From: Nereocystis luetkeana
Lineage: Eukaryota; Sar; Phaeophyceae; Laminariales; Laminariaceae
Assembly (NCBI GenBank): GCA_031213475.1
Contig: JARUPZ010000009.1
Location: 5,179,601-5,243,600, forward strand
Direction of reading: 5' to 3'
Length of the DNA stretch: 64,000 bases
Of the stretch, positions 12,665 through 55,899 are shown piece after piece (position 1 is the stretch's first letter; each line of letters opens with the position of its first letter). The position numbers and the translations under genes were made by a program. The notes below the pieces were generated by a model, which was not told where the DNA came from, ran no database searches, and saw only the letters and a program-made list of their open reading frames with translations.

Positions 12665-12741
12665 TCATTGGGCACATGTTCCTTCCAGCAAGGAAATCTT
12701 ACCGGGTGGGCATATACCACCTTCATTGCAGGAGGGTGGAA
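12665..12741 (-). CDS. Exon 18: tentative terminal exon
   Basis: After acceptor TTCTAG| a 77-bp stretch encodes a lead VPPS, then CNEGGICPPGK and EGTCAQ, and ends at TGA (12,667-12,665). The start and end of a type I module are recognisable but the CC pair has become other residues. The phase is right and the summed coding length becomes a whole number of codons, which supports it as the 3' end. It could instead be a decayed internal module. Confidence 0.45.
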
Positions 12742-15700
12742 CTAGAAAGGGCGAGAGACATGTTTGGAAACGCGGTCGACGTCGCGCAACAGAATGCATA
12801 AATATGGTAGACAAATATGTATACACAGTCGGAGAAATTCCTAACACACAGCCCGTGAGAGATTGCGAAATACGGTAGACAGGTTTTTCCAACAAGGAAG
12901 AGACCCAAAGTACTAAGCCATTGTGTACGTCAATCATGCAACACACATTATTCACCATAGCTGCTTCGGACTAACACTCTTGTCAAAAACATTGCCAATC
13001 CAAACTTCTTCTCACCACAGACGAAATCACAGTTCCCGCCCGGGCAGCATTCGGTGTTTGAAGGGCAGTCACGACTTGTTTCACATCCTGTTAGGGGACG
13101 AAATGTGCGAGCATCATCACCACAAGGTTATTCACAATACATATACGTGTAATAATAAATACGACAGGTAACCACAGTATTTAGGTATTCAGATATACAT
13201 GCCGGACGCTCTTGATTTGGACAACAAAACGAGTTAACACCCACGGGATATCCATCTCGATCAGGCGCCAGGAGAGTGCCGGCCCGGATATGGCGTATGT
13301 CCCGACCTGCATTGTCCTACATACTTTTTCGTTTGACTTATTGCACCGAAGTCCTGTGTGCTTGCATTGCAGTCCACAGTTTAACTGGGTGTATTGAAAA
13401 TATCGTGTTTCAAGTATTTATTCAGAGTGTCTTCCGTAGGCCACGGCTATGTCACGTTTCCAACAGAGTTTTTATTTGAGACTAATATTAAATGTCGTCG
13501 AAGATGTGTTGGAAAATTCAACGTAATTAGGAAACAATTCTGACACTGTGGGTGGAGTTGTTTGAGGTGAGTCTTGCCCAACCTGTGAACGAATTATAGA
13601 CGGGACTGTGTCGTATTGCGTGTGCAAGACAAGCGCGGACGACCAACCAATTGCTTCGTTGCCATTTTTCCGATTAAAAAATTTTGTCTGTTATAATTGG
13701 GTTTGTTACGTTTCTGACCTTGTCGAACCAAAATGAAGAGGCCGTTGATGCAGCCTCTAGCGCGAAGAGGTTTGTGTTATTTACCAGCGGCCGAAAGGCC
13801 AGCGGCCACCAGTTACTACTGTTGTTAATGGTAAGTCAAATATGGACAAAGGCAAGTGTAGCATCGATCGTCTGTCGGCGTGTCCAACATTTGCTGTGCA
13901 ACGCATACGTTACACATACTCAATGCCCGTTTCGGTGTGTTTTCCACAAACGTAACTAGTTGTAGACCATCAACCTAACGGTTCTTTTCAATCTAGTCGT
14001 GAGTTGAACAAACCCCTGACCATAGGGATCTGTATTGCCTGCACACATTGTGTCCGCGAATCAGAGTTACGCCAAGGCTGACACTAACAACAATTAGTTG
14101 ACCATGTGGTACGCTGGTAACGACAAATGCTCGAACAATGTGAGGACGGCCATACGGATACCCTCGTTAGAAATGTATCGTGCCCACAAAGCACCGTTAA
14201 GGCCATCTCTTATGGGACGGGTTTGAAGACCGAAAAAAATACCTGAAACTGTGCTTTGTACGTGCGTTCACGTAATTTACACAGAGAGTCCGACCGAATC
14301 AGGCTCGCTCTTCCTAGAATACTTGCAATTTTTTGGAGAGAGGTATCTAGACCCGTTTTTCAATTTTTCAGGGGTGTCGCTCGAGGTTAAAACGATGCTG
14401 TCAGTTTGAGACATAAGATTTAACAAGGTATTTTCCGATCAAAATCGATCTTTCAGACGAAAAAATGGCCTATTTTTCAGATTAACGGCGTCCCAGACTG
14501 AAAGAGGAAACTGGAGTGTATCGACAATTTTTGAAAATGATATCTTGAAGATACGGCAAACTGCGTTGCATGCCTCTCGCAAAAGGACTGGTGGGACGCC
14601 AAAAAGAGATGGCCTGATTAACCCGTTTCCCTGTTCAAACACGCCTGCGAAGGTGCTGAAACCTCGATTTTTTTAAACCAAAACCGGTTTGCCATAAGAG
14701 ATGGTCAATTAATAGTGTGATTTTTTTAGTTACTTCACGGTATACCATGTTGTGATTGTCCCACCCCATCGTTTTTCGACTGACCTTCGGACGATCGTCG
14801 GGGTTTTCAGTCCAGAAATATACTTGTTGAAAGTTTGCTCTCGTCCTTGATAACCCACTAGCAGATTTCATAGAATGTTGGATCGTTCGTGGTGAGCCCG
14901 GCAATTTCGAACGAACTTAAGGGCGACCATACCGATCCCGTGGTAGACGCTGCATTGAACCCATTTCTTGGCAGACGGGGTCGGTCCCGCCCGAGGGCCA
15001 TCCTCTGTCATACCTCCAGGTTTCGTGACGATTACTAGGAGAAAAAGAGGCATTCGCGAAGGGGTACCTTACAGCTGCACTCCCGAAGTATCGTGGACTC
15101 AAATGCATGATTAGACACCATTTTCCTTTTATTTGCATCGATCTGGGTCCATCGGCGTATCTTGGTGTTTCACCAATGCTGACCCTGTTTTCCCGCTGTG
15201 CTCGAGATTGTGGTCGTAGTGCTTCATGACTGATTTCCGGTGTTGCCGGGACGATATAGTTGGTCATGGTTTACAGCATGTATCGTACATCAAAGTCCAA
15301 GAGACGAGCATTATAGTTGGTCTGGATACGTGGTATATTCGTGTCGGTATATCAAAAACCAAACAGATAGCTATCGGGGACACTGTTTTTCCTTATTACG
15401 TCGGGAGGCGTCTGATTCTTACAATGAATGGGCATTACCAGAGAGCACCCCCGAATAGCGGTAACGCTTAACACGAAGACGTCTACAGTAGCAACGATTG
15501 CATATTTAGCGACTGCTACACACCCTGTCAGCACGAAGTGGTTTCACTTGTGAATATGTGGGATCGATGCCACTGTGGCCTGGGCTTAACCAAAGACCAA
15601 CAAAATGAGCTTGATGGAATCCTCACCACACGAAGAAAGTGATGCAGCACATGTTCCATCCGAGCAGCAGAAGGCACGTATGGGGCATTCCCCGCCGTTG

Positions 15701-18700
15701 TTACAACCTGGCGTTTAATGTAAGCCCGCCAATAGGGAAGGCCGTGGGCAGTGCAATATATAAGCGTATGTCGTAAGCAAGGAACGCGCGTGAGGATAAG
15801 TACAGCCTCGTAGACGGTTGAAGTAAGTATTGATAATTAACAGAACGCTGATCTAAAAGCGAGGTTATACAGGCGCTGCGACTAGAAACAGTTTCGAACA
15901 ACCATTTACCGTCAAGTGGGTCACACCGGACAACGTCTTCCGTCTGTGTCGGGAAATACATCGGGTGCTTCCAACAGTTAGTTCCTCACCGCAGTCGTTA
16001 ATCGTTGGAGCGCATGTCCCGTCTGAGCAGCACTCGGCAGTGGAAGGGCAGTCGCCGTCAAGACGGCATTCTGGCCGGAGTAGGTCAGTGGGAACACGTC
16101 GTGAGGGGAATATTGAACCATGTTATTTGAAGACGATGGCCACTTTTTGTTCATGGATGGGACTATAGTAGAATGAGCACAACACCTCCTGAGGTGGCAA
16201 CACGCAACAAATACGGGAGAATGCCAAGCAGAATAGGGACGAAAACAATGTGAAAGACCAGGAGCCTAACGCCTCCAACAGTCATAACAACCATAAACTC
16301 ATTATTTTCTGTCTCACCACAGGACGCCAGGGTATCAGCGCACGTTCCGTTCACGCAGCAGATTTGACCTTCATCGCATCTACCGCCATTGTCACAACCT
16401 AGTATTGCAGGTATGTCGCCCGCCAATAAGGGCGATCGGCAGAGCAACAAAGAAGAAGAATCGCGGAAAGGGGGAACACAGATGCAGGCAAAGTCAGCTT
16501 GGTACACCGTAGAGACACATGTCTATATACCAACCAACACAATTAAAGTTTAGCACATAAAAGGTAAGCTGCGTACTTTGATCATGAGACACGCCTTCCC
16601 AGTACTTTTTCGCGCACTCGACGACATTTGCCGCCGGTTTCATGTTGTATCTCGGGTACGTAATACAGACGATTTATTACCGCAGTCATTGAGCGTTTGG
16701 GCACAAGTCACGTTTGAGCAACACTCGTTCGTAGCAGGGCAGTCACCGTCATCACGGTATCCTGGCACGTGTAGGTCATTAAGGACAAGGTAGGGTCGAT
16801 ACCTTTACCTGTTCCTTGGGATACAGGAATCGATATCTACCCCCAAAGATTTAGTTACCGCTTCGAACCGCAGCTGCTCGTTGGACGGCAACATGCACCA
16901 ACCATGGTCACATTCCACCAGTACACGGTCTATGTAGAATCGTATAGAACATGAACACCACGCCTGTTACCGTCACCACAAACAAAACAATTCAATCGAC
17001 TTTGCACCACAGGACATTAACGTGTGGGCACACGTTCCGTCTGAGCAGCAGAATGTACCTCTGGGGCATACCCTGCCGTTGCTACAACTTAGCGGTTAAT
17101 GTCGGCCGGGCACGTGGAAGCGCCGTGGACAGTACAATACACGAGCGTAGGTCGTAAGTAAGGAACGCGTGTGAGGATAGACACCCCTGTGTAGACCGTT
17201 GAAGTAAATAGTGGATGATAAATATATTGCTGATCTTAATACGAGTTGACACAGACGCTGCGACTACAAACATTTTCGAGCAACCATTTACCGTCAAGTG
17301 GGTCACACTCGACAACGTCTTCTGGCTGTGTTGGAAAATACATCGGGTGCTTCCAACGGTCGGTTCCTCACCGCAGTCGTTAACCGTTGGAGCGCAAGTC
17401 CCGTCTGAGCAGCACTCGGCAGTAGAAGGGCAGTCGCCGTCAAGACGGCATTCTGGCCGGAGTAGGTCAGTGGGAACACGTCGTGAGGGGAATTTTGAAT
17501 TAAGTTATTTAAAGACGATGGCCACTTTTTGTTCATGGATTGACCTATAGCAGAATGAGCACAACACCTCGTGAGGTGGCCACACGCAACAAATACGAGA
17601 GAATGCCCAGCAGAATATGGACGAAAACAATGTGAAAGACCAGGAGCCTAACGCCTCCTACAGCCACCACGACCGCAAACTCATTTTTTTCCGTCTCACC
17701 ACAGGACTCCAGGGTATCAGCGCACGTTCCGTCCACGCAGCAGAATTGATCTTCATCGCATCTACCGCCATTGTCACAACCTAGTATTGCAGGTATGTCG
17801 CCCGCCAACAAGGGTGATCGGCAGAGCGACACAGGGGAAGAATCGCGTAAGTGTGGAACAAAGATGCAGGCAAACTCAGCTTCGTACACCTTAAAGATAC
17901 ATGTATGTCGATATACCAACCAACACAAATAAAGTTTAGCACATAAATGGTAAGCTGCGTACCTCGACGACACTTACACCGTCAATTTCATAGCGTAGCT
18001 CGGGTACGTAACACAGATGGGTTTTCGCTGTAGTCATTGAGAGTTTGTGCACAAGTCCCGTTTGAGCAGCACTTGGTCGTAGCAGGGCTATCACGGTCAC
18101 CACGGCATCCTGGCACGTGTAGGGTATTAAGTACAAGGTAGGGTTGATACCTGTACCCGTTGATACAGGAATCGATATCTACCCCCCAATGATTTAGATA
18201 CCGCTTCAAACCGCAGCTGCTCGTTGAACGGCAACACGCGCCAACCATGATGACATTCCGCCAGTACATGGTCAAAGCATAATCTTATAGAATATGAACA
18301 ACACGCCTGTTACCGTAACCACCACAAAATCATTCAATCGACCTTGCACCACATGACATTAACGTGTCGGAAACACGTTCCGTCTGAGCAGCAGAATGTA
18401 CCTCTGGGGCATACTCAGCCGTTGTTACAACCTGGCGTTTAATGTAGGCCCGCCACGCGGTAATGCCGTAGACAGTACAATACACGAGCGTACGAGTATG
18501 TCGTAAGAAAGGAAGACGCATGAAGATAAACACAGCTTTGTAAACCGTTGAAGTATTGATGATAAATACAATGCTGATTTAAATACGAGTGTTAGCAGGC
18601 GCTGTGACTACAAACAATTTGGAGCACCCATTTACCGTCAAATGGGCCCACTCGACAACACCCGCTTTCGGTATGATGCAATGGGTCGAGTACTCAATAC

Positions 18701-21700
18701 CGAAAGCTCCTTACCACAATCATTTAGAGTTGGAGCGCAAGTCCCGTCCGAGCAGCATTCGGCGGTGGAAGGGCAGTCGATATCTTCTTTGCATTCTGGC
18801 AGGAGTTGGTCATCCGGAACACGTCTTAGTTGGGGTATATATACGGCATATACAAGACGATAGCTAGTTTCGATGAATAGAGAGGCAGCAACACATTCAC
18901 CACACCTCGTTAGGCATCAACATGCGTCAACCCAATATATCGTACTCCTAAATACGGTTCGAAGAGAAGGTGAAAGTCAAGGAACCTCACGCCTGCTGCT
19001 GCGACAACCACCACCGCCATTTTCAAGAGCCTCTCACCACAGGACGCAAGCGACTCAGCACACGTTCCATCCGAGCAGCAGAACGTGCGATCGGGACATG
19101 ATCCGCCGTTGTTACAACCTGGGGGATGCAGACACACACCAGAAGAGGCGATTGTCAATGCCAAATACGACAGGCCCTCTTGAGAATGGGATTCACAAGA
19201 AGAAACAAAGAGCTTGGTACATTCTCACTTACAAAACCAACTCCAACGAAGTCACGAGTTTTGATCAGCACTTCGTAAATCGACCATAGCACACGTATTG
19301 GCCGTCACGATTGTTAACACTCAACATCTCGTGGCATACAGCATGCTCAATAGGCCCCGTTGTGTTACAAACACATCTTCTCACCACAGTCATCGATAGT
19401 TTGCGCGCAAGTTCCGTCGGCGCAGCATTCCGCTGTCGATGGGCAGTCTCCGTCTTCCTTACATTCTGCCAAGAGTCGGTCAGTGACGACACATCAATTA
19501 TTGTGATATATGATCGCGTGAATATAGAATTATATGGCAAATTTAGAACGTCACATAAGGCATACTTGGTTAGACAGAACCCCGCAACAGATATGGCAGC
19601 CTGTGCACCTAGCCACGTCACAATGAAACATACAAAACACCAAGAACCTTACATATCCTACCACCACAACAACCGAATTGATTTTTGTGAATCCTCACCA
19701 CAGGACGTTAGGTTGCCAGCACACCTTCCGCCTGAGCAGCAGAATGTTCCTTCGGGACATGTGCCACCGTTGTTGCACCCTGGCATTACAGGTAAGAAAC
19801 CGCCAGAAAAACCGGTGGGCGTTGCTAAGTAGCTGATGATCTCGTAAGAACGGCATGCACAGGCGGATAGACAGAGCTCGGTACAAATTAGAGTATATCT
19901 CTCTACGTAACCCGGTTACACTGCAATTAATTGCAACTTTGGCTCGGCACTGCGTACATCAGCCATCTGACACAGAATTGACCGCGAAATTTCTAGCACT
20001 CGAAAAACCTTCATGTTGGTTCGGGGGAATTTGTCGGGTACCTAACACATACGTCCTTTAACAACTGTTAGCAGCCTATTTTTAGTAGAGCACAAGTCCA
20101 ATTCAAGCAGACCTAGGACGCGGAAGAGCGTCTGTTGATTTCTAGGGATACTGATAGGACTACAAGGACTGGGATCTACTCATAAGTTGACACATGCACC
20201 CAGATAGCACTAACCACACCATCCATATATCTAGTTGTAGTTTAGGCTACGATTCGTTTTATCCAACCCCCATCTCCGGGGTATAGGGTGATTGAAACGC
20301 CTACATCCGTCTTGGTGATCTTGAGTAGGACGTGTGTTGGGTTCGATGTTTATAGACCTGCTGCTGAGTTTCGCTCCGTCAGAGAGCACGTGCTGAGGGT
20401 CTGGTTTCCGTCTACATTTATTTCTAATTCGCTCGTACATAAAAGGCCCGTTCTACGATAGAGGTAGCAAATTTCCGCTGTTTCGATTCTAAAAGACGGG
20501 GTTCCTTGATCCCAAACCGTCGGAATGCCAACCTTGATTTCGAAAAAAATGGTTTTCTAGACTCGGGCCATGGGATTGTTCGCCGCGATGCAATTTGATT
20601 TTTCCTGAAGTCAGTTTTCAGGTGAGGTATGGAGCTCCTCAAGTGAGGGAGACAAATTTGGGTGAACGTCTATCGTAGAACGCGTCACGAATGAAATATT
20701 TTTGATAATGTATTATAGGGAGCGTTCGAGTCACAGTTGTGTCTGCAGAAGGCGTTACTCGGATACTAAGTTACTCGACACGATCGATGCCTCCTTACTC
20801 GTTTCGTTGAGCAGCAGTGCTATGCTTCTCCTGCCTAGGGTTGCGTCCTATCCCGTGGGAATACGCCTTTGGGTATGTCCCGACACGAGCACAGTTTCAA
20901 TATTGGATCGAATTACCTAGTCTTCGTGGTCGAAATTCTCATGCAATGGGTATCACGGGGGAGTCACACGAGGGAGGTCGTTGCTTCGTCCGTGTTCCAC
21001 GGGCGACACGTGTCTTCGGTTTCTAATGTAGACATGCTCGTCCCGGCTATTTGCGAATGCTGGAAGTAAAACAATATGGGGAAAAAACGACAAGGAACAA
21101 CGCTTTCTCGACTTCGACGCTATAACAGTTTGATCGCTCCAGCTATGCCTGTAGGACAGCTTAGCACGGTATTTTTCTGTTGGATTTGAGCTTGCCTTAT
21201 CCGAGTACCAGATAAAAATGTTTGTTTACCGTACATTAGTGCCGGGCACGGGTACTAACGGACGGGCGTACAGAACTGACAAGTTCCGAGCACCTCTACC
21301 GCTGTCTTTCTCCGCTGCTATCAATAGTAAAAGTTGCAGGTACCGGTATCGATGCCGTATACATCTAGATTGAAATATATTTTGTGTGCGGTCAACATCC
21401 GCTTCCACATTCACGCGTTAAAGGGGTGGAAGAAACAGGCTGGCATACGGTACGATAAAAGTGCATACCTGGTATGCAAAGGGCTCGCGAAGTTCCAACA
21501 TAGGGAAAATATTAATTTCCAACCAAAAGCGGTGTTTCGGGTAAGTGGGTGGCAATGACAATACCCGATCTAGTCGCCCACGTGTTTGTGATCCCGTAAA
21601 TATATACCAGGTATTCATGTAACTTATGTACCTGATACGACAGACTCATCTTGGAATCCGAGTGCAACACCTATTTGTGTAAGTGTGGCGCATACCTTGT

Positions 21701-24700
21701 ACTATATACATACCGCGGAGATACGTAGGGTAAGGGTATACTGCTGGTCAGTAAATGTACTTGATATCGTGCCCACTGCTGTAGCACACGAGTCTTCAAA
21801 ACAGAACCCGTACGTTTCAATCGCCTCTGGGTCCAAGATGTGAACCGGAATATAGCAGGCCAAACCTAAACACTGTGCGAAAGGGTATAGCCTGAACCCT
21901 AAACCCGAAGAACGCTGGGGTCCTGGGTGTCGTGGCAAGGGCACACCCGCACCCCGCAACAAGAGCATTTCTACTGTAGTACAGAAGTATCGGGTACCGG
22001 TAGGAATGTCTTGCGCCACTCAGAGGAGTTCAGCGTATTGTGGCTCGGGCGTACGAAACTCACCAAAGCTATTAACGGGAAATACTATGCTGTGTACCAG
22101 TACCCCGGGCACTGTGACACGGGGACACACAGCCACCAGGATGTCCGGGCACGAATACAAGAATCGTACATGACGTACGGGAGTCCGGTCCACGGACATG
22201 GGTGACGCACAGAACGTAAAGCTCGTCACATGTAAATGGAAAGGCATATTGTTTTGATTTTTGAGTTTCCTGGCTTGAAGAACTCCCTATGAAAAAAATG
22301 TGGTAATCTCAGGTAATCTTAAACATCTGAAAGTTATACCCGATGAACAAATCCCATGTCGGATTACTAGGTGTTCACAATTTTCTGCCATTGAAAACAC
22401 AAAAAGCGATACGTAGGACGATTTTAGGCTCGTCTCGGCCGAAACCTACTGCCCCAATTCTGACATGCCGAATTGCAAGACGTCCTTTGTAGGGTAATAC
22501 CCGCAAAACTAACCTGGGTATGGCCCTATACGACTGGCCAAAAACATGCATACTGAAGCTCTAAGATGGAACGCGTCGAACATTACGAGAGGAGGCTTGC
22601 GGTTTAGAGTACGCGTCATCGTTGTGCGCAAGATACTCGTGAAAAATCTGCAACGATCAGGGGGTTCGATACTGCCGCCCGAGTACTACAACGTATCGAC
22701 ACAGGTTTCGGAGTACTAACTCAAAACAACCGTACAGTTCGCTCCACTGCCGCATACCATACAAAGCCGTGAGTGGAAACACGAATGGAATGGCAACCGG
22801 GATAAAAACAAGTGAAGACGAAAGCCTCCAGCTACAAGGGTAGCTGCGTTTTTCCGTATGCGTCTGCGTCACATCGGGTACTCGTGGAAGCACTTGCGGT
22901 TGAATGTGTGATAATAATATGCTTTGCCTATGTACGAAAAGGGTGCGCTAAGTGTGAGCATTAATAGCGGGCGCTCAACTTCTCGATAATGGCCTCACGC
23001 GCATCGCGCCGCGACGGTACGCTCGCCCTTTGTGTTAGTATGCACGCAAAAACCTTAGTCCCACGGTTGGGTGCGTATGACTTGAGTGTAAAGGATACAA
23101 TATTTTACTACAGAGGAGGTGATGCTATCCGAATGCAGTATCATGTTTAACCGTCGACTTATATGCTCCCATGTTTCTAACGCTAACTTAAATAATTGCA
23201 CATCTCATGATCGATAGAACATTCTACCCTAGAATAGGAAGTTCACGTTCCTCACCGCAGTCCACGGGGTCGGCGGTGCATACCCCGTTCGGGCAGCACA
23301 CTGAATCACCAAAGCAGTGGGTGTCATCCTTGCATGCTGTTACCGCACGTGTGTTGGACGGCGTTTGGGACAACCACGGTAACGGCAGCAGACGTGAAGA
23401 CAAGTGGGTCATACGTACCATTGGCAAGATGCGAAATTTCTTGCTTGTTTTATTCGACCATACTGTTTATTGCATGAACGTGGGCGACTGTGCTGGTGCT
23501 GAACAACAAACTGCATTAGTTTTACGTGGCATTGTGTTTGGTTTGACACGTTAAGAGGGCAAATGAAGGGTATATTTGGAAACATAATGTGTTGGGTGAA
23601 CATGGTGCCTAAGCCAAGCATTCACTGCCCTACGACTTCGCATTTGACAACTATTTTACGCATTTTCTCTGGGATATTTGCCTTGGACTCCCGAAACAAA
23701 GCCTACTCCGCATATAACACGTTCCTCACCACAGTCCTCGAGTTGGTCGGCACAAGATCCGTCCGGGCAAAAAACCATACCGTCGGCACAACCACTCGTG
23801 TCATCTCCGCAGTCTGTCGCAAAATATGAAGAGGGGCAGGCCATCAACGACAATAAACGGGGAAACAAACGCGTTAGTCACGTGGCAAAAGCGAACAGGT
23901 TATCCAGCGATGGATTCAAACAGTAGGTATGGGATATACAGGCTGTGTATTTGAAAAACAATAGAACCGTTTTAGCTTTGACATCGGATATCGATCGTAG
24001 CTCATAAGCTTAACGATATGTATACAAGTCCATACAAGAATGAGGCCGTGGCCGTGAGAAGCGACACCAGCAGTACCGATGTGGTGTAAGCGTACCTAAA
24101 CCCGGCCGAAAGGATTTAGAGCGTCTGAGGTGGTAACTGTCACGCGTGCAAGGGATACAAACTACCGTGTGAACCGCGGTAAGAGGTGCGCAGACGAATT
24201 TTGACCCACTTCTACCTATCACGTACGCCCGCATTCACAAATAAATATCTATTCTGCAGGGTATGAGCGTCATTATCGTATGAAGCACTTGCCCAGGCTG
24301 GATCTAACCCTAGTTGGTAGTTGTAAGGGGTCACCGTTAGCAAGGGAGACAGGTATAAGAAACACCGCCGTCGAACCATAAAAATACATATTTGGAGTTT
24401 GTTTGGCCGGCAGCATGGGCGTTCACACGCTGAACCGTTCGGTTCGTGTTTTTTTTGAACAGCTACGAACGCCGTATGTGCAGTAACAAAAGGATTAAAG
24501 TACATATACTTCATCACCAATTTAGAACGATCATAACATCCATCCTCGAGGAACTGAGCACTCGTTGTGGACACCGTCCAAACTGTCCTGAGCAAACTAA
24601 TACTTCGTCAACGGTGTGACCTGCAGAACTGCAATACACCAAACGCAGAATTCCTCCTTTTTAAATACAGTGTATATCTGGGTCATCTCAAGTACAGGGA

Positions 24701-27700
24701 ATCCAAACTTACGTGAAGGTTAGCATTTTTATAAAGCAGTTGGCACAACACGTCATCGACGTTTCGGTCTCGAAACATCCAGCGGCAGCACAACTGGCCG
24801 GAAAGCATAACCCGACACCAGCCCCAACCGCAACGTGTGAATCTAAGCTAGACTCCTCACCACACATCGTGAGGTTGTCGACGCAAGATCCGTCTGGACA
24901 ACACACATCGCCACCAGGGCAGTGATTGTCTTTCTTGCAACCTGTCGGAAACGTCGTGGGAAACCATCCGGAAACGACTGTTTCAGCAATCCTATTGAAT
25001 CTATTACATACGTGGATATATGGTGTACCTTCAGCGTATACGATAGGTTTCACACGCACCAACATATTTCCGATGGCAGGGTCACAAGAATTGGGCGTGC
25101 AGCCACAGGGGGGAAACGCCTTACTCCAGGTCGAAAGTCCCGTTGTCTCCGATTTGACATGCCATATATGACGATGTTGCAACCCCGACTACCTGGTCCA
25201 CCCAGACGTACTTGGCGATAGGTGCAGAAACTTCACCAAGATCGGCAGGGTACGGAAATTATTTACAGGTTTACTTCGGAACGGAATGCATGCCAAGCGT
25301 TCAGTCTGGCGCTTAGCGACATTCTTACCATTCCGGCAGCTCCATGTATCGACCTTATCCTGAATATGACACGAATCATACTCCATCCGTAATAGAATCA
25401 GTACAATCTGTCCACACCTACATCCCTAAAAAGGTACGACCATAGCACAATAAGTGAACTTGACCGGATTTGTGTAATATGTATAGTCCTACAACTGGAC
25501 TCGACCGAACAACAACTGGAGTGTTTGTCAAGTTCCGATGAGAAAATGTTCCCGTTGGTGGGCTTTCAATATGCTTCTGTACGCCTTCCGTCTTTGACAT
25601 GTGTACATTCCGTGCTGTATTTGATCAGCTGAAACGTGGTCGTCTTGATGCGGGTAAGAGATATCGACTAGGTACGCGATGTATATATCCTACAAAGAAA
25701 AGTTTCAAAGTTATTCCCGTTCAAGTGTTTTAAAACAACCGACTATCGACACGACATTTGCACGGAATTGCGTCAGTGCTTCGCAGATTCGACGTTATTG
25801 AGAGAATACGCGCCAGGATAAGGGTGCGTCAGATAAGTTTGTGGGAGTCCTTACAACATGGGGACATCTATACATTCCACAAAATATCGTGGACGTCGTC
25901 GCGCAAACCAGTACGGAAGGCCATGACCGCGCGCTAACAGTCTCAACATTGAGTCAAAGAGAAAATGTGTTTTGGGTGACACTGTGAAGAGACTCAGTCA
26001 ATGCACCCGGAACACGATTCAATACGAGTACCCTAATTGAAGCGAGCATTAGTGTAATTACCTATACTATGGTGAACTTCAAACATCCCCCCTCTCTTCC
26101 ATGTACTACCTCGTGCGCCGTCGTCTAAGACCTGTTTCCAACTGTAACACGTAGTCAAACGTAGTATGTCTAGGTAGAATTGGGGTTGATGTTCCGTCAC
26201 ACCTTTGCAGAAGCCGTTTATGCACTTTCTCCTGAAGCAGTCACAGCCACCCTCCGTAAAACACGGCATCAGGGGAGCAAGACCGTTTTTCGCTGAGGTT
26301 GGAAAACAAACACAGGTCACAGCGGTACATGCGTTGTGCGTACGTTGTTGTCAAATGGAATCTCGCGGGCGTTTCGGTGACTAAGTCGCTTTCGCTGTGG
26401 CTAGTTACACTGCTGGTCATGAAGATGGGGAACTATTCAAACAAGGTATTTTTTGGCCTGTTGACCATTGTTGCACTACCTATAAAAAATCGACCAAACA
26501 CCCAATTGTCACCGGCTATGCACTTCCAATTGCGACGCAGATATAATATGCGAACCATTTTGTTATGGTATATATGTTGCCCTCATGCCGATCATCAGAA
26601 TTGCCCTCAACACATGTTGGGATTATTACTGAACCGAAAAACGTTTCGAGAAATGGATCAATTGGAAACAATTGGGGAAAGCACGTGTGACCATTTAATG
26701 CTTCAACCGATACGCGTTGTGCTACAAGGTATTCTGACAAAACGTTGGCAACAATTGATGCACCCACGTCAATTCAGATAGCCGATAGTTGTTCGTGATA
26801 TTTTGTCGGAAGCATCATCTAGGCCGTTAGCTTCCATCGCTCTCTAAACGGCTTCCATTACTCCAGCGTTCCCGTAATCTGGGTAAACACTGGGCTTGTT
26901 TCACGATATTACACAGTTCATACGTAGCGATCTAGGAGTGATACGCCCCAGGTTTTTAGCGAGACAATTTAGTCACTGCTTCATATAGTCGCTTTGTGTG
27001 CAGTCGATTGGCCAATGCAGAAGTCGACCTATAAACATTACCGGGCTTCACTCCAGGGTGACAACTCCAACCTGTGCGTGACACCTGTGGTCCAAATCGT
27101 CAAAGGAGGTATACACATACGTGGAGGGTGTATCAATCAGGGCCGATTAACCATGGGGGCTACACTTAACTCAACCGAAACTCCCCGACAAAAAAAACGA
27201 ATACATTTAGTAAGAGAAGTTCTGGCTACCTACATGATTGATTCCCAAAGTTTGGCGACGTCCTTACTCTTGCATCAGAGTCATCATCTCGACATACTCT
27301 GTAACCCTTGACAAGCTTTACAATGTACCAACACGATCAGCTTAAACCAGCGTCGGAACGAAGAACAACTGAAACATCTCCCAGATATGGCATAACTACT
27401 CTATAAAATTTTGGTTGATTACTTCACGTGACCGGCCGCGATAACTGAGAAATGTGCACCAATCACACCAATCACGCATTTAATGGTTTCTGAACCAGGT
27501 TTTGCGGCTTTGATTGGTATCCAATGCGTAGATAGGTAGGCACGAGTTTCCGCGCTGTTCTGTTACAGAGTGTGTGTCGAATTCCCCCCCCCCCCCCCCC
27601 CCCGCCGTATCTCTCGAAGCTACTTACTGACACAGACTGAAGGGTCGTACAGCGTCCCGCAGCAGGAGGTGTCGCAGTCCGCGTTCACCGTGCAATCTGT

Positions 27701-28878
27701 TTTCAAGTACCACACGGTTCCAGGCATCAACAGTGTCAGGTGGTGGGGGAGTGCGTGGATGCGTAGGGGTTTCAATATAGGATCGACCGAGTAAGCTTGA
27801 GTGCCGAAATACGATCGTTCGCATCACTATATAATCATGGGACAACATATTGTGTCTAAATCAATAGTACTGGCTGCTGCTACCTTGCTTACTGATTGCT
27901 GGGTAAATAACAAAAAGTAAGTATTAACGCCCTAAGAAGTAACAATATGATCGGTGACGTCTAGAACCCCTTCAACCCGTTGGGCGAAGGACCTCGCGAT
28001 ATGTCGCATAGTAACCCCCGTAGTGTGTCATCATGTTTGGATGTGACTGGTCGGTCGTCCGTAGGTCGTTTCAGTTTAGGCTATAGCGACCACGAAAATA
28101 TTTTTGATACGTAGTCGGAATAGCTTGGCAGCCTCCGTAATCCCCTACCCACATCCTGAATATCATATAGAACACGAGCAAACGGCGGGCCATGTCAATT
28201 CCTGAACAACATCGATAAAATCCACATGCCGTATGTAATAAATGCCAAGAACAACGGTCACCAATTCCAAGCACGGCAGTACAGGCGGTACGGAAGGGAT
28301 GCACGCTCACATGATGTGGGAAATGGATGGATTATTAAGAGTAGTCATCTTGAATGGTTTCGTTTGTGTCCGAAGAAACGTTTCGAGCGTCTGTTTTCAG
28401 CTTAGCAGTTGATCGGGGCAGTATACTGCAGGTGGTCTGTTTACGTGTGCAATCTGGCCCCACTTTAGTTATGTACCTTCGTTGGTGAAATACACGGTGA
28501 ATATATCCCAATCAAACTTATCGCAAATGTCACCGCTCCCTGTTAAATGTAAGGGTGCCATTTGCTCCCCATGTAACTGTGCGCTGAAGTCGTGAACTCA
28601 TACTTCATTAAGTCCAGATGATGGGACGTTGTGAAAGAACAGGTACTAGAAGTGAATAACAATGTATCTAGATACCACATCCGTAACGAAACAAAACAGA
28701 AACGCAGCCATTCAAAAGGTCTGTACGTATGGCAGACCAGGAAACTACTTTGATGCGCTAGGTGCATCGAAGTCTTATCGTGAGGGATAAACTCACCTTC
28801 GCCTTCATCTTGGGCAAATGCGGAGAGAGCAAAGAAGAGCACGGTGCACGCACCCTTGGCATAAGGGGCGAAACGCAT
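12665..28878 (-). CDS. Secreted multi-module cysteine-rich protein, split gene with tandemly duplicated exons
   Basis: I predict one gene on the minus strand from the signal-peptide exon at 28,878-28,797 to a tentative last exon ending at 12,665. Eighteen exons are called: signal peptide, sixteen module exons and a terminal exon. Internal exons are 69-90 bp, usually exactly 81 bp, and every intron is phase 1 with GT donor and AG acceptor. The usual donor is G|GTGAG or G|GTAAG, splitting a glycine codon after the last cysteine. The typical module has spacing C-x5-C-x5-CC-x4-C-x6-C, compatible with inhibitor-cystine-knot (knottin) folds and loosely like hevein-type or Dickkopf/colipase-type modules. 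I cannot assign it to any of these. Exon lengths sum to 1,446 nt, 482 codons including the stop. The hydrophobic N-terminus implies secretion. Function, partners and expression are unknown. Intron sequences are partly duplicated with the exons. The last exon, and whether all exons are used together, are the least certain parts. Confidence 0.72.
13016..13087 (-). CDS. Exon 17: short cysteine module
   Basis: This 72-bp phase 1-1 exon has acceptor CTAACAG| and donor GTG|GTGAG. It encodes a module starting GCETSRDCPSNTECCPGGNC and ending FVCGE. The last loop is only three residues instead of six. It is separated from exon 16 by about 2.5 kb of sequence in which I find no other module. Confidence 0.75.
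15627..15707 (-). CDS. Exon 16: cysteine module, type I
   Basis: This 81-bp phase 1-1 exon has acceptor ACGCCAG| and donor GTG|GTGAG. It encodes a module starting GCNNGGECPIRAFCCSDGTC and ending SSCGE. Its tandem counterparts at 17,008 and 18,350 are both broken, so this is the only intact exon in that position of the repeat unit. Confidence 0.8.
15990..16070 (-). CDS. Exon 15: cysteine module, type II
   Basis: This 81-bp phase 1-1 exon has acceptor CGGCCAG| and donor GCG|GTGAG. It encodes a module starting ECRLDGDCPSTAECCSDGTC and ending NDCGE. The coding part is nearly the same as exon 12. Confidence 0.83.
16318..16398 (-). CDS. Exon 14: cysteine module, type I
   Basis: This 81-bp phase 1-1 exon has acceptor TACTAG| and donor GTG|GTGAG. 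It encodes a module starting GCDNGGRCDEGQICCVNGTC and ending ASCGE. It is near-identical to exon 11. Confidence 0.83.
16681..16761 (-). CDS. Exon 13: cysteine module, type II, first cysteine lost
   Basis: This 81-bp phase 1-1 exon has acceptor TGCCAG| and donor GCG|GTAATA. It encodes a module starting GYRDDGDCPATNECCSN and ending NDCG. The first cysteine is Y, leaving five. Splicing and frame are intact, so the exon may still be used. Confidence 0.7.
17008..17087 (-). pseudogene. Decayed module exon (type I), one base short
   Basis: The module core is readable (CSNGRVCPRGTFCC) but the exon is 80 bp because a base is missing at the acceptor side (CTAAG|TTGT in place of CAG|GTTGT), which breaks the phase. 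The donor is GTG|GTGCAA. It would shift the frame if spliced in. Confidence 0.62.
17372..17452 (-). CDS. Exon 12: cysteine module, type II
   Basis: This 81-bp phase 1-1 exon has acceptor CGGCCAG| and donor GCG|GTGAG. It encodes a module starting ECRLDGDCPSTAECCSDGTC and ending NDCGE. It is almost identical to exon 15, 1,382 bp away, which points to a recent duplication. Confidence 0.83.
17700..17780 (-). CDS. Exon 11: cysteine module, type I
   Basis: This 81-bp phase 1-1 exon has acceptor TACTAG| and donor GTG|GTGAG. It encodes a module starting GCDNGGRCDEDQFCCVDGTC and ending ESCGE. It lies exactly 1,382 bp from its near-identical copy, exon 14, and the flanking intron sequence is duplicated as well. 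Confidence 0.83.
18031..18111 (-). pseudogene. Decayed module exon (type II), donor lost
   Basis: The 81-bp length and acceptor TGCCAG| are kept. The second cysteine is S and the last is Y (NDYSE). The expected GCG|GT donor has become ACAGCGA, with no GT. It is the tandem counterpart of exon 13 and probably no longer recognised as an exon. Confidence 0.7.
18350..18431 (-). pseudogene. Decayed module exon (type I) with stop and frameshift
   Basis: The copy is 82 bp instead of 81. It has an in-frame TGA in the first loop (after GCNNG) and a one-base insertion after the fifth cysteine codon. The donor is the weaker GTG|GTGCAA. Including it would truncate the protein, so it should be skipped. 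It is the counterpart of exon 16 and of the decayed copy at 17,008. Confidence 0.72.
18715..18795 (-). CDS. Exon 10: cysteine module, type II
   Basis: This 81-bp phase 1-1 exon has acceptor TGCCAG| and the near-ideal donor GTG|GTAAGG. It encodes a module starting ECKEDIDCPSTAECCSDGTC and ending NDCG. All six cysteines are present. Confidence 0.82.
19038..19118 (-). CDS. Exon 9: cysteine module, type I
   Basis: This 81-bp phase 1-1 exon has acceptor CCCCAG| and donor GTG|GTGAG. It encodes a module starting GCNNGGSCPDRTFCCSDGTC and ending ASCGE. All six cysteines are present. Confidence 0.82.
19385..19465 (-). CDS. Exon 8: cysteine module, type II
   Basis: This 81-bp phase 1-1 exon has acceptor TGGCAG| and donor GTG|GTGAG. 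It encodes a module starting ECKEDGDCPSTAECCADGTC and ending DDCGE. Type II modules have an acidic DGDCP between the first and second cysteines and alternate with type I along the array. Confidence 0.82.
19699..19779 (-). CDS. Exon 7: cysteine module, type I
   Basis: This 81-bp phase 1-1 exon encodes a six-cysteine module starting GCNNGGTCPEGTFCCSGGRC and ending TSCGE. Type I modules have C-[N/D]-N-G-G after the first cysteine. Acceptor is TGCCAG| and donor GTG|GTGAG. It is the first exon of the compact array in which exons recur every 314-365 bp. Confidence 0.82.
20056..20140 (-). pseudogene. Decayed cysteine-module exon relic
   Basis: Words resembling the middle of a module exon (plus strand GAGCACAAGTCCAATTCAAG) occur about 340 bp beyond exon 7, where the regular spacing predicts one more exon of the second type. 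The frame, cysteines and splice sites are gone. Confidence 0.35.
23256..23336 (-). CDS. Exon 6: cysteine module
   Basis: This 81-bp phase 1-1 exon has acceptor GTAACAG| and donor GCG|GTGAG. It encodes a six-cysteine module starting ACKDDTHCFGDSVCCPNGVC and ending DCGE. The next intact module downstream is about 3.5 kb away, the second-longest gap inside the module array, beyond the region of compact duplications. Confidence 0.78.
23730..23813 (-). CDS. Exon 5: cysteine module lacking one of the paired cysteines
   Basis: This 84-bp phase 1-1 exon has acceptor GCGACAG| and donor GTG|GTGAG. It encodes a module starting DCGDDTSGCADGMVFCPDGS. The CC pair is FC, so one half-cystine is lost, and one residue is added in each of the first two loops. 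It ends EDCGE. Its splice sites and frame are intact. Confidence 0.72.
24861..24941 (-). CDS. Exon 4: cysteine module
   Basis: This 81-bp phase 1-1 exon has acceptor CCGACAG| and donor GTG|GTGAG. It encodes a full six-cysteine module starting GCKKDNHCPGGDVCCPDGSC and ending MCGE across the junction. Like exon 6 it has an H before the second cysteine instead of the D or G seen nearer the 3' end. Confidence 0.78.
26203..26292 (-). CDS. Exon 3: divergent cysteine-rich module
   Basis: This 90-bp, phase 1-1 exon has acceptor CCAACCTCAG| and donor AAAG|GTGTGA. It encodes a lead-in of about ten residues, then CFTEGGCDCFRRKCINGFCK. The cysteine spacing (C-x5-C-x1-C-x4-C-x4-C) differs from the main module type. 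It could be a related but rearranged module or an unrelated small one. The donor is not optimal, so confidence is lower than for the main array. Confidence 0.55.
27584..27603. repeat. Homopolymer C20 (G20 on gene strand) in intron 2
   Basis: Twenty consecutive C on the plus strand, hence G on the sense strand of the cysteine-rich gene, lie just inside intron 2. Exact length may be a sequencing artefact. Confidence 0.85.
27628..27696 (-). CDS. Exon 2: divergent cysteine-rich module
   Basis: This 69-bp exon lies between acceptor AACAG| and a perfect donor A|GTAAGT and is phase 1-1. It encodes a five-cysteine module beginning CTVNADCDTSCC and ending in SVCV, with spacing C-x5-C-x3-CC-x8-C. It lacks the sixth cysteine and the CGE ending of the later modules. 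A run of 20 G (minus strand) begins about 18 bases after its donor. Confidence 0.65.
28797..28878 (-). CDS. Exon 1: signal peptide
   Basis: The ATG at 28,878 opens a 27-codon exon: a short basic start (MRFAPYAKG), a hydrophobic core (TVLFFALSAFA) and then an acidic stretch (QDEGE). This is a classic secretory signal peptide with likely cleavage after AFA. The frame runs straight into a textbook donor, GAAG|GTGAGT. The exon is 82 bp, so it ends in phase 1, exactly the phase that every cysteine-rich exon downstream needs. That match is the main reason for joining it to the array. It has no cysteine module of its own. Confidence 0.75.
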
Positions 28879-34326: not shown

Positions 34327-36050
34327 CTAGTCGACTTGGTGCCTTGCTACCCTGTCTGCCATCTCCTTCCTACTTTCGTTTACCGCCGTTTCCCTTCTAC
34401 CCCTCCTATTCCCCCCCCTCTCCGCATTCCCTCGGTCGGGCTTTCTGCCACTTCTCCTGTTGCCCCCTCCCCCCCCGGTTCCTTGGGCACCATCCACGGC
34501 GGATGCGCGGCGCTGCCTACTCATCTCAGCCTCAGCCTCGTGCCACCTCACCATGAACCGTTCGGCTGCTTCAAGGATCCCCCGGTACCACTTCTCCGCC
34601 TTTTGGGGTGCAGTGGACCACAACGCTGTCTCAACTCCAAACACCAAGGGGGCAACTTCCGTTGACCCTTCGGTGGCTCGGAACTCCCTAAGGTCTTCGA
34701 CTATGCATCTATGCCAGGTCTTACACTGTCCGCCTGGTCTCGGGTTCTCCCCACCGGTTATCGTCCCGAATATTACCCGACTTGGTAATCGCTCCTTGCT
34801 TTGCCGTGCCACGCCCCCCGCAAAGAAGAGCCGACGTTTACGAATGGTCGTTTCGATGCTCTCGCAACGTGTCATCTTGAGGGTCTTCGCGTACGAGAGG
34901 GTGGCATGGTCAGTATGAAGTCGGCGCTGGAAGCCAATGACTCGCAGCAGGACTTGGTGGTGAGCCGTTCGAAGCTTGGCAAAGTGTTCCGCTCTGAGTG
35001 TCCACGTCACACACCCGTACAGCAGGGTCTCAATCACCTCGGCCTTCAGCATTCGGATTTTAAGACTAAGGGGGGCGGTCGTCCTATCATACAACTCCGG
35101 GCCGAACCGTTTGAGGCATGCTCGCATAATGCGGATCCGTCGGTCGATTTCGAGCGAGAGCGCAGCGTTTTCGTGGATAACGCCGCCTAGGTATAAGAAC
35201 TGGGTCGTCTGCTTATACCTCTGACCTGCCGCTTCGATGACGAGCGGTGGTGCGAGGGTTGTCCGGTCTGGTGTTTGTAGGACCATTGTCTCGGTCTTCT
35301 TTTCCGACACCGTGAGGCCTGCTGCTTCGAAGACAGTCACGATGACTGTCATCATTTTTCCTGCATCATCGGCGTGCAACATGCCCCATACAGACCTTCG
35401 CACGCACGCCAATGGCTCCTCCTTCCCTGTTCGAACTGCACCAGCTTCACTGAGTTGGACCAAATCTCTTACAATGGCTTCGTCTTGGCTGAAACGTACT
35501 AGTTCGACGTGTAACGCAGCAGCGAAGAACACGTTTAACAGTAACGGTGATAGTACACAGCCTTGCCGCAGCCCCTGCGTGACATCAAACCATTCCGAGA
35601 GCTCGCCGTCATCAGTACGCACGCGAGCCCGCATGCCATCGTGGAAATTACGGATAATTCTCAGCATCTTGGTTCGTACGCCAAAGCGTTTGAGTACCTT
35701 CCATAACAGATCTCGGTCGACAGAGTCGTACGCTTTCTGCAGATCGATGAAGCACACGTATAAGGGGATTTTTCTCTGGCGTCCGAGCTCTTGCAGCCGG
35801 CGCACGACGAACAACATATCAATCGTTGATCGTGCGGGGCGGAAGCCGCACTGTTCCTCGAGGAGTAGTTCCTCGGTCTCGCAGTAGTTGCTGAGGCGGG
35901 ACGCGACGATTTTCAACAACGCTTTGCCTGCATGGGCAACAAGCGACATCCCTCTATAGTTGTTGCAGTCAGTTCGATCCTTCTTTTTGTGAAGGACCTT
36001 GATGATCGCATCTTTCCATTTCATTGTTGAGGGACTTCTCCTGTTAACCA
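34327..36050 (-). pseudogene. LINE ORF2, reverse transcriptase and C-terminal domain
   Basis: This frame encodes a non-LTR reverse transcriptase. Visible blocks are [22 protein letters not shown], motif [14 protein letters not shown] (around 35,712-35,755), [17 protein letters not shown] and the catalytic box as HADD (around 35,363-35,376, normally YADD). These are followed by [12 protein letters not shown], a conserved C-terminal part and a charged tail. The catalytic box is followed almost at once by the KMM helix, which suggests a small internal deletion. The open frame extends upstream to 36,147 but the homologous part begins where the endonuclease frame ends. The two were one ORF, separated by about five extra bases near 36,025-36,035. 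The element would copy itself by target-primed reverse transcription if intact. It is inactive as read. Confidence 0.88.
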
Positions 36051-37268
36051 AACATTGACAAGGATGTTGTGAAAGCGCTGGGCGAATGCCGGGTGGTCGA
36101 GTTTTAGGAGTTCGACCGGGAGACCATCTGGCCCGACAGCTTTCCAATTCGACATCCCCTTAAGTGCTTCTGTCATCTCGTCTATGGATGGTTCATTTTC
36201 AAGCGACAGTTTAGGCGGTCGCGGCGAGAGGTCGATGATCGTGGGATCGAGTTTCAGCGACTTCATGTTCAAGAGTTTGTGGTAAAACCCCGCCCATCGT
36301 TCACGAATTCGCACCTTATCCCGTAGGATCGTGCCATTCTCGTCCCTAATGAACTGTTCGCTCCTCGCTTTAGTCCCTTCCAATCCTACCGTACTCTTAA
36401 GGTGCTTGTAAAAGCCTCTTTGGTCGTTGTTCGCTAGGAGTCGTTCGGTTCCGGTAAGGTACGCTTCGAAGTACGCATGCAGTCCTGCGGCAATCACCCT
36501 CTGCAGGTTCGCACACGCAGATCTCAGGGTCTTCCACGCCGTTCTGTCCCGGATGTGGGCACGCAAGAGTTGTCGTGCATCCTCCCTCGCTGTCCATGCT
36601 GGCATGAATGCGGCCAAGGTTTCGGCAGACTCACACCATCCATGTCTGTGGTGGCGACGTGCAGGGGGTGGTACCTCTTTTCCGACCGCATCAATAACAA
36701 CCGTTGTGAAAATCTTAACCATACCAGACGTATTACGGGGCTGGATAGCCTGGTTGAGAGTGGAGTTGACCCTGGAGACTACTCGTTCACGACCATTTCC
36801 ATCGGACATAAAAATCTGCCTGTCGAACTCTCGGCGTTTCGTCGGTCTACGTATATGTCTGTTTGGCGCAAAATAACCACCGAGTCGGACTTTGATATAC
36901 AAGATGTTGTGGTCTGAGTCAGCCTTAGCTGGGGCAGGAGGATGTGGGACGACTTTCGCATCTTGTACTCTAGGTCGATGGACTTGACGGGTTAGGATGT
37001 AGTCAATCCGCTTACGGTCATTCGGGCCGGTGCCGTTGTGAGTATGCGATACCCCACCCTTGCGCGTGCTGAAAAACGTGTTGGTGAGAGCTAACTTGCA
37101 ATTGGTGGCAAACGCCAGGAGCCGTCTGCCATTATAGTTACGAACATCACGTCCATACGCTCCCAGCACTCTGCTTTCATCATCACCACACCCTTCCTTC
37201 CTCTGTCCAGTTCGCGCGTTGGCATCCATCAGTACGAACAGACACTCTTTCGTCGGGATTTTTTCCAC
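36021..37268 (-). pseudogene. LINE ORF2, endonuclease and N-terminal RT region
   Basis: This is the C-terminal part of an APE-type endonuclease: MDANARTG (metal-binding region), KRIDYIL, and the catalytic SDHN motif. A linker follows, then the start of the reverse transcriptase ([16 protein letters not shown]). It stops at TGA just after TGEVPQQ, where the next residues (WKDA) are found one frame away. In plain terms the ORF is broken between the endonuclease and RT palm by a short insertion. The upstream end is also broken (see next entry). Confidence 0.87.
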
Positions 37269-40257: not shown

Positions 40258-40460
40258 GTCTGTCTGCCTGCTGTGGACAAGCCCAGTCTGCCTGCTGTTG
40301 AGTGCTGCGGACAGGCTCAATCTTCCTGCTGTGGATAGGCCCGGTCTGCCTGCTGTGGACAGGCCCAGTCTGCCTGCTGTGGACAAGCATAGTCTGTCTG
40401 CTGTGGGCAGGCACAGTGTGCATGCTGTGGACAGGTACAGTCTGCCTGCTGTCTGCTGCT
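40258..40460. repeat. 24-bp minisatellite
   Basis: About eight imperfect units of TCTGCCTGCTGTGGACAGGC plus four bases. The period is a multiple of three and two minus-strand frames stay open through it, giving octapeptide repeats of the CPQQADWA or VHSRQTGP kind. No start, splice or flanking domain supports translation, so I list it as a minisatellite. Confidence 0.8.
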
Positions 40461-41283: not shown

Positions 41284-42642
41284 CTAAGGAATTGTGCAAC
41301 CGAGAGACCACAGACCAAAGTGGTCGGTGCCCCAGGTGTGGGTGGGCCCGGATGTCCGACGGGGGGTTAAAGGGAGCGTGGTTAGCCCAGGGCCCTGTCT
41401 TACGGCCGGGAGCTGGTGTTCGTGGGGGCTGTACGCGGCCGGATTTGGCCAGGAAACGGTGGTGGAAGAAGCGCCGTGCGCGTTCCGGAGGCTGACCACC
41501 AGAGCCATGGTGCATGCACGGCGTTGCTGTACCTCCCAGGGACCGTCCGTCATCTGTATCCAGGCGGCGTTTACTGAGAGGTCGTCCTCGGGAATCTCGC
41601 GTCGGAGTCCACGAGCGGTAGAGACGACTGTTGTCGCCGCCTCAGGGAGGAAGCACGGGTTTCGGCTCGGCGCCATGCTGGCGACACTCTCCTGCAGGAA
41701 GTCTAGGTCCTATAGCCTCCAGGTCAGGGCGTCGACCGCGATCGCGCTGGAGAGACGCTGCTCGAGGGGACCAGGTCCGGGGGCGAGAGTGGTGACTGGA
41801 GCAAGTGGCGTTGCGGTCGCGGCGAGTGGGAGACACGCAGCCGGGTCTACTGTCTCGACAACACGAAGGGTCGTCGTGGCGCTGGTCACCCGAGCAGCCC
41901 GCACAGCTTTCCTGGCGCAGGAGGTACACTCCCGGACGCAGTTCGCGGAGGCCGTGACGTCGGCCTCGGAGGCGTAGGTAACATTCTCCGTGGTTATGGC
42001 AGCAGCGGCGACTGCACAAGCGGCAGCTGACACTAATTGTACCCAGAGTCTCACGATGTTTTCCGAGGAAGCCCCGAAGACGTCGGCGGCGGCCAAAGCC
42101 TTTTAGACCGCGACGACTTCTTCCCGGCCGTCGACAGCGGCAGGAGTCCGCTCGGCCGCGACGATGTCGGTCTGATCGGGCGCCGGGCGTGTTGCCGTGA
42201 TCCCCGCGTCGAGCACCAAAATGGTCGACCAATTCTGGAAAACAGCTCCCCTGTCCTGCGACGTGAGGGAGGCCCACACGCTCAGCCGCGACGATGTCGG
42301 CCTCATCGGGTGCCAGGCATGGTGCCGTGATCCCCGCGTCGAGACCCGAAATGGTCGATCAATGCTGGAAAACAGCTGCCTTGTCCTGCGACGTGAGGGA
42401 GGTCCACGCTCCAGGCAGTCGGGAGGACGGGTCTTAGGCACTGTCAACTTCCGCGGCCGCCAGCCCTGCGTCCCCCACGGTATCCAGCCTGAGTCAGGGT
42501 GCTCGACGTCCACGGCGTCCTCCAGAGTCGTGGGGCCCGGAAGCTCGGTTGTCCTCTCTTCCGACGAAAAGGAGGAGCTGTAGGTTCTCAGGCCAGTGGT
42601 AAACCTGGCGGGGCTGGACGTCTTCTCCCGTGCATTCGCCAT
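41284..42642 (-). pseudogene. Unrecognised GC-rich reading frame with two stops
   Basis: From an ATG at 42,642 (MANAREKTSSP) one minus-strand frame stays open for about 453 codons except for TAA at 42,105-42,103 and TAG at 41,712-41,710. The region is clearly more GC-rich than its surroundings. A 129-bp tandem duplication (units starting near 42,153 and 42,282) keeps the frame. The product would be Arg-, Pro-, Ser- and Thr-rich with a small cysteine cluster (CVRECTSC) and I recognise no domain. It could be a decayed retroelement gag or a host gene with stops inside introns. A plus-strand frame at 41,294-41,977 is also open, a common effect of high GC. Confidence 0.45.
42153..42410. repeat. 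129-bp tandem duplication
   Basis: GCCGCGACGATGTCGG occurs at 42,153 and 42,282, and TGCCGTGATCCCCGCGTCGA occurs twice, also about 129 bp apart. The unit is 43 codons long, so it preserves the reading frame above. Confidence 0.85.
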
Positions 42643-54461: not shown

Positions 54462-54835
54462 TGTTGGTCATAACTGTTCGTCATAATAAGTACTTCACAT
54501 GTCTGATGTGTCTGATCGTGGATACGGGTGATTTGTATAAGTGGATATTCCGCCAGGCTGATGTGTCTAATTGTGCGGATACGTGTGATTTGTGTACCTG
54601 GAAAAATGTGGCGGGATTTATGATTTCCCGAATGGGTTTTGCTATAAACATCATATTGATACCTTTTTATGGGATCCTGGGACGAAGGGATAGCCCCTGT
54701 TCGTTCACTTCATCTTTGGTGGTTTCTAATATACACCTGGTTCAACATCTTCTCTCTGGCCTCATGGCAAACTCCCGGGTGGTCACTCACTGCGCCTCCT
54801 ACCCGAGGCAACCCATTACACGAGGCGATCGATTA
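54462..54835 (+). repeat. 5' LTR of the Copia element
   Basis: Starts TGTTGGTCATAAC and ends near GATCGATTA. Aligns over its whole length with 61,807-62,174. Contains an internal direct duplication of about 55 bp beginning at 54,505 (GATGTGTCTGATCGTG) that the 3' LTR shares, so it predates insertion. It does not end in the usual CA. Confidence 0.88.
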
Positions 54836-54883
54836 TACTAGCACAATTGATATATCAAAGATAACTCGTGTAAGGGTTGCAAG

Positions 54884-55844: not shown

Positions 55845-55899
55845 CCTGGCGGGAGAGGAGGACGCGGCGGACGAGACAGGAGCAGGAGAAACGACAATA

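Follow-up and report, generated by a model that had tools for sequence, protein, structure and literature searches.

A predicted chain of one-module cysteine-rich exons in Nereocystis luetkeana suggests a secreted modular protein that grows by exon duplication

We analysed a 64,000-nucleotide stretch of Nereocystis luetkeana DNA (contig JARUPZ010000009.1, assembly GCA_031213475.1; hereafter the window), which holds a predicted minus-strand array of cysteine-rich exons. The array is best read as a single gene that grows by exon duplication and encodes an acidic modular protein, braced by cysteines and secreted, which is likely a multivalent binder outside the cell; we give this reading as a whole a probability of about 0.6. 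Taken by themselves, the existence of the gene and the way in which it grows are highly probable. The function as a binder is a tentative assignment, held at somewhat less than even odds. Under this reading the exons would be spliced into one message, and the product would be secreted and would bind, with a possible role in recognition or defence.

The gene model runs on the minus strand from position 28878, the A of an ATG, to 12665, the final base of a TGA stop codon (12665-12667); both ends are exactly those of the original prediction. Once spliced, the frame is open for 481 amino acids over 18 exons, every junction lies in phase 1 and the TGA falls in the last exon. Exon 1 (28797-28878), recognized by the spliced frame and by signal-peptide scoring, carries the start codon and a signal peptide (MRFAPYAKGACTVLFFALSAFA, followed by QDEGE) and ends in phase 1. 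All 16 predicted internal exons are of class 1-1 with lengths divisible by three; 12 of them measure 81 bp and the remaining four 69, 90, 84 and 72 bp. The claim that a signal-peptide exon ending in phase 1 precedes sixteen phase 1-1 exons with consistent borders, most of them exactly 81 bp long, is confirmed in this frame, and the sequence gives good support to a secreted protein built of modules, each cysteine module having an exon of its own.

Candidate exons were listed if they were of phase 1-1 and encoded at least five cysteines. Exons 2 (27628-27696, 69 bp, C-x5-C-x3-CC-x8-C) and 3 (26203-26292, 90 bp) are not copies of the main module and were placed by their borders and open frame alone; exon 3, cysteine-rich and unlike the main module, is the least certain of the chain. 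From exon 4 onward, the spliced frame and an exon profile agree. Exon 4 (24861-24941) encodes a six-cysteine module, exon 5 (23730-23813, 84 bp) has phenylalanine in place of the first cysteine of the CC pair, and exon 6 (23256-23336) again encodes six cysteines. These are followed by A-type modules in exons 7 (19699-19779), 9 (19038-19118), 11 (17700-17780), 14 (16318-16398) and 16 (15627-15707) and B-type modules in exons 8 (19385-19465), 10 (18715-18795), 12 (17372-17452) and 15 (15990-16070), all of which, like exon 4, were also recognized by the six-cysteine motif. Exon 13 (16681-16761) is a B-type module in which tyrosine replaces the first cysteine and the borders are intact. Exon 17 (13016-13087, 72 bp) is B-like with a shortened last loop (C-x3-C), and the terminal exon 18 (12665-12741) holds a degenerate A-like module that ends in the TGA (profile expect value, E, 0.0019).

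The six-cysteine spacing given in the original prediction, C-x5-C-x5-CC-x4-C-x6-C, is exact in 11 of the 16 internal exons, with AG and GT borders at the predicted places. When borders are disregarded the window has 12 matches to the motif, the additional one belonging to a dead copy (17008-17088); none appeared in 200 shuffles of the window that preserved dinucleotides, with or without the border requirement. Because the copies arose by duplication, the 11 matches are not 11 independent events. The exon profile reported 18 places at E below 0.01, all on the minus strand within 12668-24947. Thirteen of these are the exons on which it was trained, and five are new (three dead exons, the exon at 23730 and the terminal exon). 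A weak trace near 20087-20129 (E 0.84) may be another relic. The shuffles rule out a satellite or chance open reading frames (ORFs), together with the coding selection and the module relatives described below.

The array has grown by tandem duplication of a two-exon unit of about 691 bp, and exons appear to be both gained and lost. Between 19779 and 12665, 15 copies alternate by eye between A and B, counting three dead copies and the two divergent last ones. The A/B exon pairs at 15627-19779 (minus strand) repeat with a period of 651-692 bp, and this part includes a four-exon unit of 1382 bp that has been duplicated as well. The three dead copies, all on the minus strand and found by the profile, differ in how they appear to have failed. 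An A-type copy at 18350-18431 contains an in-frame TGA and a shifted frame, whereas a second A-type copy at 17008-17088 has an open frame and an acceptor changed from AG to AA, the next AG lying one base later. In the B-type copy at 18029-18109 the second and sixth cysteines are changed and the usual donor is lost. Since every exon is symmetrical, a dead exon could be skipped without damage to the frame. The A/B unit and the dead exons, as well as a rival start exon at 24416, go beyond the original prediction.

Coding selection was analysed with the within-type pairs among five A-type and five B-type exons, 15 of the 20 pairs being usable. Non-synonymous divergence (dN) was below synonymous divergence (dS) in 14 of these 15, with dN/dS values of 0.07-0.35 that are rough, as several dS values exceed 1. 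The recent 1382-bp duplicate shows 7 differences over the 162 sites of its two exons, against 115 over 771 aligned sites in the three introns compared, gaps excluded (Fisher p 9.7e-5). Among A-type modules, five from the window and four from relatives, variation peaks in loops 2 and 4 and is zero at the cysteines.

Relatives of the module were found in a third protein search, which returned 18 proteins at E up to 10, one of them (P0126) the window's own exon. In eight Logan/ENA records (P0127-P0131 and P0133-P0135) a single module lies inside a longer frame, with non-module sequence on both sides in every case. The module agrees with a window copy at 18-26 of 28 residues, the highest value being that between exon 6 and P0134, and flank identity is 0.07-0.33 in six of the eight. 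After the last cysteine the relatives have Gly-Glu (seven of eight) or Gly-Asp (one of eight), as expected if the frame is read through a G/GTGA donor. Scans of viral and genome contigs, from which records of the same or a very near genome were possibly left out, confirmed no relative.

The nine other proteins of this search (P0132 and P0136-P0143) are different cysteine-repeat proteins and were excluded from the relatives. A search with the whole protein gave five proteins at E of 0.001 or lower. The most informative of them by eye is P0005 (625 amino acids; E 5.7e-6; 30% identity), which comes from EukProt with the label Mesen1, taken here to be Mesotaenium. In it, C-x6-CC-x4-C-x6-C-x-C blocks that resemble the array module alternate with C-x5-C-x4-CC-x9-C blocks like exon 2; its second block is longer, and homology to the window gene is unproven. 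When non-cysteine residues were shuffled 200 times, the module score of P0005 was never reached. The same holds for nine of the 11 distant proteins examined, and in the other two the score was reached twice in 200 shuffles; P0140, P0142 and P0143 were left out of this test. That nine of 11 pass points to a shared DG-T/S-C core, not to homology. P0001-P0004, P0132 and P0136-P0139, some probably bacterial, contain a four-cysteine tandem repeat around C-x-DG-[TS]-C and have no precomputed Pfam domain. Disulfide pairing based on the four-cysteine proteins P0001-P0004 and P0137-P0138 was dropped, because their missing cysteines fit knottin pairing, in which the disulfides run 1-4, 2-5 and 3-6, and WAP pairing alike.

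The cysteine order relates the module to known frameworks. Hevein-like peptides are defined by the motif CXnCXnCCXnCXnC (PMC8512870), and six cysteines in this order are present in 12 of 14 aligned modules, 11 of which have 5-5-4-6 spacing. Chitin binding in these peptides involves SXXG in loop 3 and a GXXXX-aromatic sequence in loop 4 (PMC8512870), which occur in none of the 14 modules, the loops being unreadable in one (23730, without CC); loop 3 of the window modules has four residues instead of the five of the published motif. Pfam searches of the 14 modules at E up to 10 reported six families, Chitin_bind_1 (CBM18) not among them, although HMMER filters remove most matches above an E of about 0.1. 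With the binding motif and the Pfam match absent, membership of the hevein/CBM18 family was rejected. For the first 324 residues of the 481-residue model, Pfam gave no match at E up to 10; the remainder consists of further A/B modules.

The WAP model was one of the families reported, matching six of the 14 modules at E up to 10 (best E 0.0069). The WAP four-disulfide core has eight cysteines. The window module has six and, for the one module with a score given (E 0.058), scored 14.1 bits against a cut-off of 20.8, so that WAP membership was rejected. LDLR class A was also set aside, being a weak match in a solved-structure search (best E 0.1) and in Foldseek and absent from the six Pfam families. 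The EsV-1-7/IMM cysteine-rich family of brown algae has a motif with a fixed histidine and appears to differ from the window module.

A knottin-like fold of the modules is plausible. Models of two modules, of the kind the original prediction had proposed, have predicted local distance difference test (pLDDT) values of 81.7 and 85.5 and contain a short hairpin and a helix. For both, the first-ranked structure was Ac-AMP2 (1mmc), a six-cysteine hevein-like peptide, at E 3.3 and 2.2 only. The earlier designation as knottin-type is plausible from the C-C-CC-C-C framework, which hevein-like knottins share, and from this ranking; the structural match is not significant.

To explain how such a protein could work and change, we propose that a module of about 27 residues corresponds to one exon between phase-1 introns. 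Because the introns on either side are in the same phase, the frame is kept when a copy is gained, lost or skipped. The array would grow by tandem duplication of the A+B unit, and surplus copies would die by loss of a splice site or gain of a stop and then drop out of the message. The binder may be located in or near the cell wall, with contact residues on the loops between the fixed cysteines, in which case exon turnover would alter both valency and loop repertoire.

The composition of the protein also fits a different role. After the likely cleavage between AFA and QD, the mature chain has 459 residues with 95 cysteines, 81 acidic (Asp/Glu) and 20 basic (Lys/Arg) residues and a calculated isoelectric point (pI) of 4.05, and the six most hydrophobic 19-residue windows of the protein are all N-terminal. 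Such an acidic cysteine array might instead be a passive, stiff, perhaps calcium-bridged part of the wall matrix, in which module number sets length only. The low pI, the excess of acidic over basic residues, the regular module spacing and the purifying selection all agree with a structural wall protein. The strong variation in loops 2 and 4 of the A-type modules would be needless in a spacer, and we regard this role as unlikely.

The region may also contain two genes, a short one from 28878, terminated by read-through beyond exon 4, and another that starts at the ORF at 24416 and takes in the remaining array. This is improbable, though the second start is a genuine competitor, and depends on a competing signal-peptide-like start exon at 24335-24416 (minus strand), which ends in VSLA/NG, has a phase-1 donor at 24334 and might otherwise be an alternative first exon. 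Furthermore, the frame of exon 4 stays open as far as a stop at 24709. Among five candidates for a signal peptide plus donor on both strands of the window, ranked by an ad hoc score, the start of exon 1 comes first (3.52), followed by one elsewhere (3.24), and the one at 24416 reaches 2.67. The donor of exon 4 is good, and reading on past it yields no module, which also speaks against two genes.

Cleavage of a precursor into single antimicrobial knottins, as in the cleavable hololectins of quinoa (PMC8512870), would account for the six-cysteine hevein-like framework, the signal peptide and the tandem copies. It is quite improbable, as mostly just one residue separates the final cysteine of a module from the first cysteine of its successor, against an 18-residue hinge in quinoa, and the net charge is negative in 13 of 14 modules and neutral in the other. 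Least probable of all is that the array is the unexpressed, decaying remnant of an old gene. Three of the 15 A/B array positions are dead and exon 13 lacks its first cysteine, as decay would predict, but the other exons have kept their frame, their borders and almost all of their cysteines, their dN is below dS, and the relatives retain the module.

Several observations weigh against a single gene for a modular binder. The exon chain was deduced from sequence alone. By hydropathy only, the starts at 28878 (2.48) and 24416 (2.45) are nearly tied, which makes two genes possible. The odd number of 95 cysteines, with exons 5 and 13 each one short, suggests that some exons may be skipped or decaying. 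In the selection analysis, the A-type pair 17700 and 16318 has four non-synonymous and no synonymous changes, and dS was saturated and could not be computed for five B pairs. Comparison of the exons in the 1382-bp duplicate with the A-B intron alone was not significant (p 0.08), and B-type modules (five from the window, three from relatives) vary evenly along their length, with cysteines that are not fully conserved. Only two of the eight relatives have E of 0.001 or lower, the others lying at 0.0013-0.034. P0130 and P0134 have conserved flanks (12/15 and 8/14 for the former, 10/15 and 3/15 for the latter) and look like close copies of this locus; as both come with a longest contig of 15,963 bp, they are probably on one contig, and P0130 is nearest to a dead window copy. 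A query made up of modules alone tends in itself to give matches with high identity in the module and low identity in the flanks, so that the relatives support the exon borders without proving them. Finally, the structure search with the two module models gave no significant fold match.

The closest parallel to this gene is with the ROCO and NB-TPR genes of brown algae, which are candidate immune genes. According to PMC11378527, each leucine-rich repeat (LRR) of the brown-algal ROCO genes, except in two groups, is encoded by one 72-bp phase-2 exon, and the exons are strongly shuffled and alternatively spliced; on ROCO and NB-TPR genes the paper refers to Zambounis 2012 and Teng 2023. In the window gene, as in these, each repeat has its own exon, the exons are constant in length and phase, and duplication and turnover are heavy. 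It is not a member, since its repeat, phase and predicted secretion differ: ROCO exons are 72 bp, in phase 2, and code for the LRRs of GTPases, whereas the window exons are mostly of 81 bp, in phase 1-1, cysteine-rich and preceded by a signal peptide. No LRR or TPR with ROC-COR or NB-ARC was found by Pfam in the first 324 residues. As regards diversifying selection at contact sites, a further feature of the brown-algal genes, the exon pairs of the window gave dN below dS in 14 of the 15 usable cases and four non-synonymous to no synonymous changes in one.

Other systems share single features. Hevein-like peptides and hololectins (PMC8512870, PMC5478723) have the cysteine framework and tandem modules in common with the window gene, which has many more modules and one exon for each. 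Class 1-1 shuffling of extracellular modules is described for metazoa in PMC8001218, which also accounts for the phase-1 intron close to the point where the signal peptide is cleaved. Here too, the predicted introns that flank each module and the one that follows the signal peptide are in phase 1, yet the host is a probable stramenopile and the module has no good Pfam match. Secreted cysteine-rich repeat proteins (SCREPs), a descriptive class from protein mining, likewise have secreted tandem cysteine modules (PMC6262176); the words 'exon' and 'alga' do not occur in its main text. A search of the literature by titles and abstract openings, in which subscription papers were mostly outside, gave no description of this gene or of an algal gene with one exon per cysteine module. 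The statement that such an architecture is not recognisable thus holds for the unusual combination and not for its components, as one-repeat-per-exon arrays, SCREPs and class 1-1 modules are known.

The rest of the window contains mobile elements and repeats. A non-long-terminal-repeat (non-LTR) retrotransposon with an RVT_1 match lies at 34327-37268 on the minus strand and has relatives up to 73-74% identical, one of which sits in a bin labelled Parasphingorhabdus, suggesting algal DNA in a bacterial bin. Ectocarpus sp. CCAP 1310/34, at 51%, is the sole eukaryote named among the best 120 of 761 matches to its reverse transcriptase. Among the matches listed, this gives indirect support to the surmise of the original prediction that the DNA is from a probable alga, and makes an ochrophyte host, probably a brown alga, likely. 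A Copia-type LTR retrotransposon occupies 54481-62143, with Pol_BBD and RVT_2 matches, a sub-threshold integrase match, and direct repeats at 54481-54803 and 61823-62143 whose blocks are 88-90% identical. A transposon origin of the array was rejected, as the retroelements identified (34.3-37.3 kb and 54.5-62.1 kb) lie outside it, the long introns not having been searched for others. A GC-richer stretch holds a 24-bp tandem repeat of about six copies (40303-40452) and a 130-bp duplicate (42149-42407), and two ORFs scanned there had no Pfam match. Rfam at the gathering score and ARAGORN each gave no match.

PMC8001218 describes class 1-1 shuffling of secreted modules as a root of animal multicellularity, and brown algae acquired complex multicellularity independently. 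The brown-algal exon-shuffling genes described so far, in what is accessible of PMC11378527, encode ROCO and NB-TPR proteins. A secreted cysteine-module array of the same build would suggest that the exon-shuffling strategy arose separately and reaches the cell exterior. More speculatively, and on balance doubtfully, the gene could be the extracellular counterpart of ROCO and NB-TPR, in which exon birth, death and in-frame skipping in a rapidly turning array would supply each alga with secreted multi-knot recognition proteins whose repertoire keeps changing, class 1-1 shuffling having been invented independently outside animals. A secreted array of this kind raises the questions whether skipping in phase-symmetric exon arrays of brown algae may be regulated, and whether exon copy number may vary among individuals and track pathogens.

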